IMG/VR virus record: IMGVR_UViG_3300047322_000607
Location: 1-64,000 of that record
Length of the DNA stretch: 64,000 nt
Reading direction: 5' to 3' (one strand)
Source of the DNA: a virus
Below, piece by piece: positions 44,521-63,690 of this stretch; the first letter of the stretch is position 1, and every line of letters begins with the position of its first letter. Made by a program: the position numbers and the translations under genes. Below the pieces are notes generated by a model. It was not told where the DNA came from. It did not search any database and worked only from the letters and a program-made list of their open reading frames with translations.

Positions 44521-44754
44521 ATGGCGATCCGGTTTCCATACGAGGAGCTCGGCGCGGCCGACCGCTACGGCGGCTATCCCCGGCGGCGGCGCGCACGGCT
44601 CCCCTTCCTGCTGCTCGGCGCGCTGGCGCTGGTGGCGATCGCATGTGGGGTTTTTCAATGGGAGAGAGCAAGATCGAATGGTGCGACTGTGTGTGGAACC
44701 CGACGCGCGGGTGCTCCCTGGTCTCGCCCGGCTGCACCAACTGCTACGCGATGA
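44521..44754 (+). CDS. Doubtful small membrane protein frame
   Basis: An ATG right after the terminator T-run opens a 77-aa frame with one hydrophobic segment (LPFLLLGALALVAIACGVF). There is no ribosome-binding site, and the last 100 bases overlap the DUF5131 gene, where this frame reads like a shadow. It may be real only in its first half, or simply be the leader of the next gene. Confidence 0.3.
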   Translation: MAIRFPYEELGAADRYGGYPRRRRARLPFLLLGALALVAIACGVFQWERARSNGATVCGTRRAGAPWSRPAAPTATR

Positions 44755-45710
44755 AGCAGGCGCATCGCTTCTCCGGCCCGGGGCGCGCCTACGAGGGGTT
44801 GACCAGGTTGCGCGACAAGGGCGGCCCGGTCTGGACCGGGAAGATCGTGCTCGTCCCGGAGGCGCTCGTCGCGCCGCTGACCTGGCGCCGGCCGTCGAGG
44901 GTCTTCGTCAATTCGATGTCCGACCTCTTCCACGAGGGTCTGACCAACGAGCAGATCGCGGCGGTCTTCGGTGTGATGGCTGCTTGCCCGAAACACACCT
45001 TCCAAGTGCTCACCAAACGCGCCGATCGGATGCTGCGTTGGTTCGATTGGGTCGCACGGCAAACGCCGGATCCGTGGACGCATTGTCACTCCGAAGCGCT
45101 GGCGCGCGACAACGAGGAAGCGATCATCCACACCCATAGCAACGAAGTGATCGGGCGCCCGTGGCCTCTCCCGAACGTCTGGATCGGGGTCTCGGTCGAG
45201 GATCAACCGCGCGCCGAGGAGCGGATCCCGCTCCTGCTGAACGTCCCGGCGATGGTGCGCTTCCTCTCGATCGAGCCGCTGCTCGGTCCGGTCGACCTGC
45301 GGAAGTGGTTTCGCCTCTCCCGGTTCAAGCAGGATTACGACGCGCTGATCGGGAAGACCCCGGGCGGCGAGCAAGGGATCCCCGACCATCTACGATGGAA
45401 CGGAGTGCTCCCCCAGTCGCTGCACTGGGCGATCGTCGGCGGCGAGAGCGGCAACGGGGCGCGCTCCTGCGAAATCGGATGGATCCGGGAAGTGGTGAGG
45501 GTGGCGAAGATCTGCGGTGTCCCGGTCTTCGTGAAGCAGTTGGGAGCATGGCCCGAAGAGCACATTCGCCCGACCGGGGCGTCCGACGATGGCGGCGACA
45601 TGATCCCCCTTCGCCTCGAGAGCAAGAAGGGCGGCGACCCGGCGGAGTGGCCGGAGGATCTGCGGGTGCGGGAATTCCCGTTCCCCTATACCGCGAGCTC
45701 GGCGAGCTGA
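44658..45710 (+). CDS. DUF5131 (phage Gp37/Gp68) family protein
   Basis: The 350-aa protein starts with MGESKIEWCDCVWNPTRGC, the usual opening of this family, so ATG 44658 is preferred over 44643. Cys19, Cys26 and Cys29 (GCSLVSPGCTNCYA) form a Cys-rich site like that of radical-SAM or other iron-sulfur proteins. FLSIEPLLGPVDL and PVFVKQLGAWP are further hallmarks. The biochemical role of the family is unknown to me. Its stop overlaps the next start (TGATG). Confidence 0.85.
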   Translation: MGESKIEWCDCVWNPTRGCSLVSPGCTNCYAMKQAHRFSGPGRAYEGLTRLRDKGGPVWTGKIVLVPEALVAPLTWRRPSRVFVNSMSDLFHEGLTNEQIAAVFGVMAACPKHTFQVLTKRADRMLRWFDWVARQTPDPWTHCHSEALARDNEEAIIHTHSNEVIGRPWPLPNVWIGVSVEDQPRAEERIPLLLNVPAMVRFLSIEPLLGPVDLRKWFRLSRFKQDYDALIGKTPGGEQGIPDHLRWNGVLPQSLHWAIVGGESGNGARSCEIGWIREVVRVAKICGVPVFVKQLGAWPEEHIRPTGASDDGGDMIPLRLESKKGGDPAEWPEDLRVREFPFPYTASSAS

Positions 45711-62483: not shown

Positions 62484-63098
62484 ATGAAGAAGACGCCCCC
62501 GAAGAAGCCGAGCCGGGCGACCGCGCCGCTCGTCGAGAAGATGGGGATCCGCCACGTCGCCGCCGACTACAAGCGGATGGACGGCCTCTTCGTCGCACCC
62601 GGCCGGATGGTCGCCTTCGACGAGCCGCTCTTTCTCTTCCCGGGCCAGGAGATCTACGCCCCCCGGACGATCGAAGAGGGTCAATACGTCGTCCGGGTGG
62701 TGGTCGACGGCGTGCTGACCCGCACGGTCCGCGCGCCGCTTCACCCGACCCCGGTCCCGATCGCCGCGCCGGCGCTTCAATCGGTCCCCCTCGAGCCGGC
62801 GCCCGAGGCCACCTTCGCCCCGCAGGCGCTCGAGGCGCCGCCGAGCTCGCCGCCTGTGCGCCTGGTGCGCGTGCAGCAGCCACCGAACGACCTCGCCGAG
62901 CGGCAAGCCTCGGGCGACCTCCTGCGCGCGCTGTGGGCGCTCCTGTGGCCGGTGCTCTGCTACTTCCGGCTGCACGCCTGGCGCACCTACCGGAAGGTGA
63001 TGATCGACCCCAACCCGGGCGAGCTCGGTCCGTCGCAGCTGATCGCCGCGCGCCAGCGCTGCGCGCGCTGCAACAAGGAACGGTCGATCGTCCGATGA
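62484..63098 (+). CDS. Hypothetical protein
   Basis: ATG 62484 follows AAAAGGAGATCGCCCG. The 204-aa protein has a beta-rich first half (YAPRTIEEGQYVVRVVVDGV), a Pro/Ala linker, a hydrophobic helix (LLRALWALLWPVLCYF) and a final RCARCNKERS zinc-like pair. Family unknown. Confidence 0.6.
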   Translation: MKKTPPKKPSRATAPLVEKMGIRHVAADYKRMDGLFVAPGRMVAFDEPLFLFPGQEIYAPRTIEEGQYVVRVVVDGVLTRTVRAPLHPTPVPIAAPALQSVPLEPAPEATFAPQALEAPPSSPPVRLVRVQQPPNDLAERQASGDLLRALWALLWPVLCYFRLHAWRTYRKVMIDPNPGELGPSQLIAARQRCARCNKERSIVR

Positions 63099-63250
63099 AG
63101 CTACCGGACCACTACCCCACCAGCGGCGAATACCTGCTCGAGCCGCTCGAGGGGCCCGACGGCCGGCTCTACTCGATCATCCCCTTGACCTTCGGCCGGG
63201 CGCGGATCGTCGTGGGGCGCGACCGGCTCACCTATGACGACGGGTGGTGA
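63095..63250 (+). CDS. Small protein ended by TGA; N-terminal part of a split gene
   Basis: ATG 63095 overlaps the previous stop. The 51-aa product (MKLPDHYPTSGEYLLEPLEG...) ends ...TYDDGW before TGA 63248-63250. The same frame then stays open for 47 further codons with the codon use and composition of a real protein, so the gene is either disrupted, read through or recoded. See the next entry. Confidence 0.6.
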   Translation: MKLPDHYPTSGEYLLEPLEGPDGRLYSIIPLTFGRARIVVGRDRLTYDDGW

Positions 63251-63394
63251 TACGAGCGCCCCGGCGTAGCGGTCGCTGCGCTCCAAGCCTGGGATCCGAT
63301 GGTGGCGAAGGAACCGGAGGGATGGATCCGGCACCCGGAGACCGGCCGACGGCGCCCCGATGGCGATGCAACAAGGGAATACGTGAGCCGGTGA
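63251..63394 (+). other. In-frame continuation after TGA, with SECIS-like hairpin
   Basis: After the TGA the frame reads YERPGVAVAALQAWDP... and ends with GWIRHPETGRRRPDGD...EYVSR before a TGA that overlaps the next GTG (GTGA), as in a genuine coupled gene. An 8-bp stem (63263-63270 with 63275-63282) with loop GGTC starts 13 bases past the TGA. The UGA-to-loop distance is 20 bases. An ATG at 63299 could alternatively restart translation. Confidence 0.5.
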
Positions 63395-63690
63395 GGCTCG
63401 ACGAGTACCTGCAGGTCCGCGAGGCCTTCGCCCGCGAGCAGGCGCTACGGCTTGCCGCCGAAGCGGTGCGCGGCGAGCTCCTGCAGAGCGTCGCGCGGAT
63501 CAAACTGAAATGGGAGGCAGCCGAGCGGCGCGCCGACGACCACCCTAACGGCAGCTGGGGCGGTCTCTACGCGCAACGCGACGCCTGGCGCACCTTCGGC
63601 CTGCACTGGCGCGAGCAGGCCCGATGGTTGCGAATCGCGCTCGCCGCGGGCCCGCTGCTCGAATGGATGCACTGGAGAAAACCGAGATGA
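63391..63690 (+). CDS. Hypothetical helical protein
   Basis: GTG 63391 overlaps the preceding stop. The 99-aa protein is helical and Arg/Glu/Ala/Trp-rich (RLDEYLQVREAFAREQALRL, WGGLYAQRDAWRTFGLHWRE). A longer reading from 63244 would run through a shadow frame and is rejected. Confidence 0.6.
   Translation: MRLDEYLQVREAFAREQALRLAAEAVRGELLQSVARIKLKWEAAERRADDHPNGSWGGLYAQRDAWRTFGLHWREQARWLRIALAAGPLLEWMHWRKPR

Follow-up and report, generated by a model that had tools for sequence, protein, structure and literature searches.

An in-frame TGA codon in a small phage gene

The DNA analysed here (the window) is a stretch of 64,000 nucleotides comprising bases 1-64000 of a metagenomic IMG/VR virus record of 68,619 bases, with a GC content of 67%. 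Matches to terminase, portal, tail sheath and baseplate hub proteins assigned it to a tailed, myovirus-like phage. Most of the window proteins tested had no family match, and the phage is a poorly characterised one of high GC content. A strong match to DUF5131 (PF07505, 252 bits) was found at 44643-45710, and a Gp37/Gp68-type phage gene also lies near one of the cysteine homologues described below, on an Acetobacter plasmid (L007). Near the right end of the window, among small overlapping genes, we located the following features:

62484..63098, + strand: upstream gene, 204 aa, function not assigned; overlaps the start of the putative selenoprotein gene (ATGA)
63095..63394, + strand: putative selenoprotein gene, 99 codons (UGA taken as selenocysteine, Sec) plus stop TGA; homologous on both sides of the TGA to more than 100 loci
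63248..63250, + strand: in-frame TGA, probable Sec codon (residue 52); the aligned codon is TGC/TGT in 74 distinct relatives and again TGA in a further 53
63263..63282, + strand: candidate bacterial-type SECIS hairpin, 8-bp stem, -12.3 kcal/mol; recognised by its fold, by covariation in the family and by its absence from Cys relatives
63271..63274, + strand: GGUC apical loop of the candidate SECIS, separated from the UGA by exactly 20 nt; shared at this distance by 20/26 TGA versus 0/74 Cys relatives
63391..63690, + strand: downstream gene with a GTG start; overlaps the stop of the putative selenoprotein gene (GTGA)

The frame that opens at 63095 encodes 51 residues, reaches the TGA at 63248-63250 and continues for 47 sense codons to a final TGA at 63392-63394. 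Its ATG overlaps the stop codon of the upstream gene and its final TGA overlaps the GTG start codon of the downstream gene, both being translational overlaps. Re-reading of the sequence upheld the interruption, the 47 open codons and the terminal GTGA overlap that had been reported in the preliminary description of this DNA, and corrected the length of the full product from the 98 residues given there to 99 aa counting Sec. The predicted product consists of the N-terminal part MKLPDHYPTSGEYLLEPLEGPDGRLYSIIPLTFGRARIVVGRDRLTYDDGW, then U, then YERPGVAVAALQAWDPMVAKEPEGWIRHPETGRRRPDGDATREYVSR. Pfam searches of the upstream and downstream genes returned no match.

The window protein itself had no Pfam family above the cut-off and no sequence match in the PDB. 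The AlphaFold2 model was confident (pLDDT 89.7) and showed a small protein of mixed fold in which residue 52 lies in a strand; fold searches gave no match at E <= 0.001 in the PDB or BFVD, and neither sequence nor fold matched the known selenoprotein families (FdhA, SelD, GPx, Prx, Trx-like and others).

Cysteine or TGA at codon 52 of the relatives

A single-sequence query found no match in IMG/VR, and alignments were needed to recover relatives there. Tblastn searches of phage and plasmid records identified Cys homologues in Caulobacter phages, in Sinorhizobium phage Phosso and on Sphingosinicella, Skermanella and Acetobacter plasmids; all seven that were aligned carry Cys exactly at the TGA position, within the motif D-R-[WY]-C-[YF]. 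Profile-guided scans of IMG/VR together with one bacterial-genome scan brought the collection to more than 100 loci. Counted over distinct sequences, with duplicates and one truncated repeat removed, codon 52 is TGA in 54 (the window included), TGC or TGT in 74, GAC in one and TAT in one. The suggestion of the preliminary description that relatives may have Cys at the TGA position was thereby confirmed for 74 of the 76 distinct non-TGA relatives aligned.

The main searches for relatives used peptide patterns without the TGA site, and a search with an upstream motif that does not touch the TGA (PLTF.R.R) yielded TGA in 29/29 loci. Some of the 54 TGA sequences were found by DNA patterns that contain the TGA, in part also the GCGGTCG motif of the loop; the loop statistic of the full set of 54 is thus biased, and pattern-found members, with the exception of L145, were kept out of a first set of 26 sequences. 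Protein identity of the TGA sequences to the window is approximately 45-65%, and in a tree the 26 form one clade with deep divergence, albeit on a short alignment with modest support. The occurrence of TGA in 54 divergent sequences indicates that this codon has been kept through deep divergence. Close pairs that stay in frame gave dN/dS values of approximately 0.05-0.25 both before and after the TGA, a pattern indicative of purifying selection on both sides of it; L136, which is frame-shifted downstream, was left out of this comparison.

Several individual copies depart from the general picture. L136 (IMGVR 3300023284_003054) is a TGA copy that seems to be frame-shifted after RHLDT relative to four close relatives, through either decay or an assembly error. 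Asp (GAC) replaces Sec or Cys in L013 / L120 (IMGVR 3300036861_000387), which lies beside or inside the Sec clade in the tree, and Tyr is aligned at the same column in L026. Such copies have either diverged or show that the residue can sometimes be dispensed with. Twelve TGA loci have in common a serine recombinase-like upstream gene, and twelve have another conserved small gene approximately 0.75-1 kb upstream; these are possibly integrative phages.

The wider family corresponds to PHROG 24748, a phage family without an assigned function, which was matched by 41/74 aligned members. The window protein alone did not reach the PHROG threshold, but its relatives match the profile and the alignment of the core is clear (motifs D.WC[YF] and EP.GW.RHP..GRRR, the latter lying downstream of the TGA and being the most conserved part of the protein). 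Cys members such as those of Caulobacter phages BL47 and CcrBL9 are homologous over the whole conserved core and lack both the UGA and the SECIS; Sec would appear to replace a near-invariant Cys of this family. The two groups also differ elsewhere: the Cys group conserves Arg50 (44/49) and His78 (45/49), whereas the Sec group has Gly, Val or Ala at 50 and Met or Ile at 78, and gains Arg35 and Arg37. On one reading of this difference, the thiolate of the Cys relatives has to be activated by Arg and His, and Sec, with its low pKa, can do without them. A second conserved Cys, and hence a conserved CxxC redox motif, was absent. We favour a role for residue 52 as a reactive nucleophile or redox residue, as this reading suggests; a structural or metal-ligand role is possible.

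The hairpin downstream of the TGA

The GGTC loop on an 8-bp stem, 20 bases past the TGA, that the preliminary description had reported was recovered at 63263-63282, with the loop at 63271-63274. A U-G wobble forms the fourth pair of the stem from the loop, and the outermost pair is G-U. Folding of this segment was more stable than expected (z = -2.9; 1/200 shuffles as good), whereas a longer stretch around it folds unexceptionally for such GC-rich DNA (z approximately 0). The published bSECIS model specifies a loop of 3-9 nt that has a G within its first two positions, a stem of 4-16 bp, a spacing of 16-37 nt from the UGA and an energy of <= -7.5 kcal/mol (PMC13188914), and the window hairpin, with its GGUC loop, 8 bp, 20 nt and -12.3 kcal/mol, lies within every one of these limits. 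As a measure of chance we took the 351 window frames of at least 60 codons that end in TGA: some hairpin passing the bacterial SECIS model followed 72 of them, and one with a GGUC loop followed only 2. The window hairpin taken alone is thus modest evidence for Sec, and it is the relatives that decide. A scan with Rfam found no SECIS match near the site, only chance hits, and a SECIS covariance model detected no further copy in either the window or the TGA loci.

Across the family the loop is strikingly uniform. GGUC stands at +21 to +24 in 20 of the 26 first-set TGA sequences and in none of the 74 Cys sequences. In the alignment of the 26, 81.1% of the cells of a 7-bp core are paired, against 62.9% in shuffled alignments (0/500 as high); doubly changed cells number 36 against 16.7 expected, and the covariation score is 0.495 against 0.204 in shuffles, a signal that is abolished by sliding the partner strand. 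Columns 21-30, which are the third positions of two codons, include AU, CG, GC, UA, GU and UG pairs, and columns 18-33, also two third positions, include CG, GC, UA and AU pairs. Such compensatory changes in the stem, largely at synonymous positions, point to selection on the RNA and not on the protein alone. The same columns in the Cys relatives served as a control and carried no signal (46.7% paired versus 48.5% shuffled).

The whole bSECIS model was passed by 46/54 TGA and 14/74 Cys sequences, and a pass combined with a GGUC tetraloop at 20 nt was seen in 37/54 TGA and 0/74 Cys sequences, the 54 including pattern-found members in both counts. Eight of the 54 TGA sequences miss the strict energy or loop criteria of the model as implemented here, and in a few the loop is GUU, GUG, CGUG or AGUU. 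The codon that contains the loop is a near-invariant Val (GTC) in the Sec group and encodes Lys and other residues in the Cys relatives; the fixation of this Val suggests that the RNA element dictates part of the protein sequence.

Decoding of the TGA codon and comparison with known systems

We conclude that 63095-63394 is very probably an intact gene by which the phage encodes a small selenoprotein, and in which UGA 52 is read as Sec by means of the SECIS. Selenocysteine insertion was one of three options offered by the preliminary description, and it is the one to which the Cys/TGA column and the covarying hairpin point. In the proposed mechanism, the hairpin, lying inside the coding sequence just past the UGA, would act as a bacterial SECIS and recruit a complex of SelB and Sec-tRNA-Sec, so that codon 52 is decoded as selenocysteine; a phage with no detectable SelB or tRNA-Sec would use those of its host. 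That Sec is actually inserted we infer from the sequence record, namely the frame, the Cys/Sec column, the conservation of the TGA, the covarying SECIS and the Sec machinery in the genome bin of one copy.

Searches of 25 TGA phage records, most of which may be incomplete, found neither SelB nor tRNA-Sec above the cut-off in any of them, the tRNA-Sec search returning only sub-threshold ordinary tRNAs; the host machinery is therefore presumably used. An 81-kb contig with matches to a phage tape-measure protein and a DnaB-like helicase carries one TGA copy (L084), and this contig is binned in a Planctomycetota genome (a single metagenomic bin, in which binning errors are possible). The bin contains SelA (488 bits), SelB (363), SelD (326) and a tRNA-Sec (71 bits) whose anticodon is UCA according to ARAGORN. 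Its selD gene (L209) itself has an in-frame TGA, at the motif PAGG-U-ARK, which we take to be the known Sec site of SelD, and the organism represented by the bin thus appears to make selenoproteins of its own. These genes are what Sec decoding by the host would predict. The host genes selA, selB and selC, to which the preliminary description had looked, were all found in the bin that holds another TGA copy; the host of the window phage probably also decodes Sec. A survey of Planctomycetota found the gene in 1/392 sampled genomes, namely this bin, and no close relative of the window terminase in the sampled Planctomycetota.

Programmed readthrough, with a near-cognate tRNA inserting an ordinary residue under stimulation by the hairpin and with both a short and a long product being made, is a very improbable account of these data. 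Readthrough is known to be stimulated by some downstream hairpins, and the TGA is invariably followed by T, though this T also belongs to a conserved Tyr codon; readthrough does not, however, predict that relatives have Cys at exactly the TGA column, nor that a G-rich tetraloop matching a SelB-type SECIS lies at 20 nt, nor that the hairpin covaries in the TGA group only, and its truncated product of 51 residues would be without EP.GW.RHP..GRRR. Plain readthrough was rejected on these grounds. We give next to no credence to a nonsense mutation, or a sequencing or assembly error, in a gene encoding Cys or Trp at this position: TGA is a single base away from TGC, TGT and TGG and the contig comes from a metagenome, but a plain mutation or read error is ruled out by the recurrence of TGA at one codon in 54 distinct sequences, 26 of them in a deeply divergent clade, and both the apparent purifying selection past the TGA and the confinement of the covarying hairpin to the TGA group argue against it. 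Phages with reassigned stop codons exist, but a code in which these phages or their hosts read UGA as Cys or Trp, or a phage suppressor tRNA, is just as hard to credit, since TGA is common as a stop (28/63 window ORFs of at least 100 aa, as the preliminary description had said of the window in general terms, 147/264 long ORFs in the TGA loci and 34/54 of these genes themselves) and the phage loci that were scanned yielded no tRNA with a UCA anticodon; a local read-through comparison likewise gave no other convincing Cys/TGA gene among the matches listed.

Selenoproteins have been catalogued in bacteria, archaea, eukaryotes and a few eukaryotic viruses. Our search of the open full-text literature (subscription papers and preprints being outside its scope) found no phage selenoprotein, and a 2026 review of prokaryotic selenoproteomes does not mention phage or virus. 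The sequences strongly support a new phage selenoprotein family, whose priority as such is likely, though short of certain. It is probably the first bacteriophage selenoprotein family to be described, widespread in tailed phages and dependent on host Sec machinery, with a new fold and with Sec in place of a conserved reactive Cys, and the gene would be fully expressed only in Sec-decoding bacteria. A gene that annotation would call truncated thus recurs across tailed phages, and the expression of a phage gene would depend on a host trait that only some bacteria possess, which could provide a marker for host prediction. The family also offers a naturally occurring collection of covarying SECIS elements and suggests that phage selenoproteins are hidden by standard gene calling.

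Bacterial selenoprotein genes with a bSECIS, of the E. coli fdhF type (PMC13188914), resemble the phage gene in having the UGA aligned to the Cys of relatives and a hairpin directly 3' of the UGA in the coding sequence, with a small loop that begins with G; here the spacing is 20 nt and the stem 8 bp. Unlike them, the present gene is phage-borne, belongs to an uncharacterised protein family with no known oxidoreductase fold, and has an unusually uniform SECIS, with a GGUC loop at a fixed distance. Among viruses, selenoproteins have been reported for eukaryotic viruses, and the established case is that of the poxvirus glutathione peroxidases of molluscum contagiosum and fowlpox (PMC8310308), which are likewise encoded by the virus and decoded by the host, as is presumed here. 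The poxvirus genes, however, belong to eukaryotic viruses, derive from cellular GPx and use a eukaryotic SECIS (PMC8310308), whereas the gene described here has a bacterial-type SECIS and belongs to a protein family that is nearly confined to phage and plasmid sequences.
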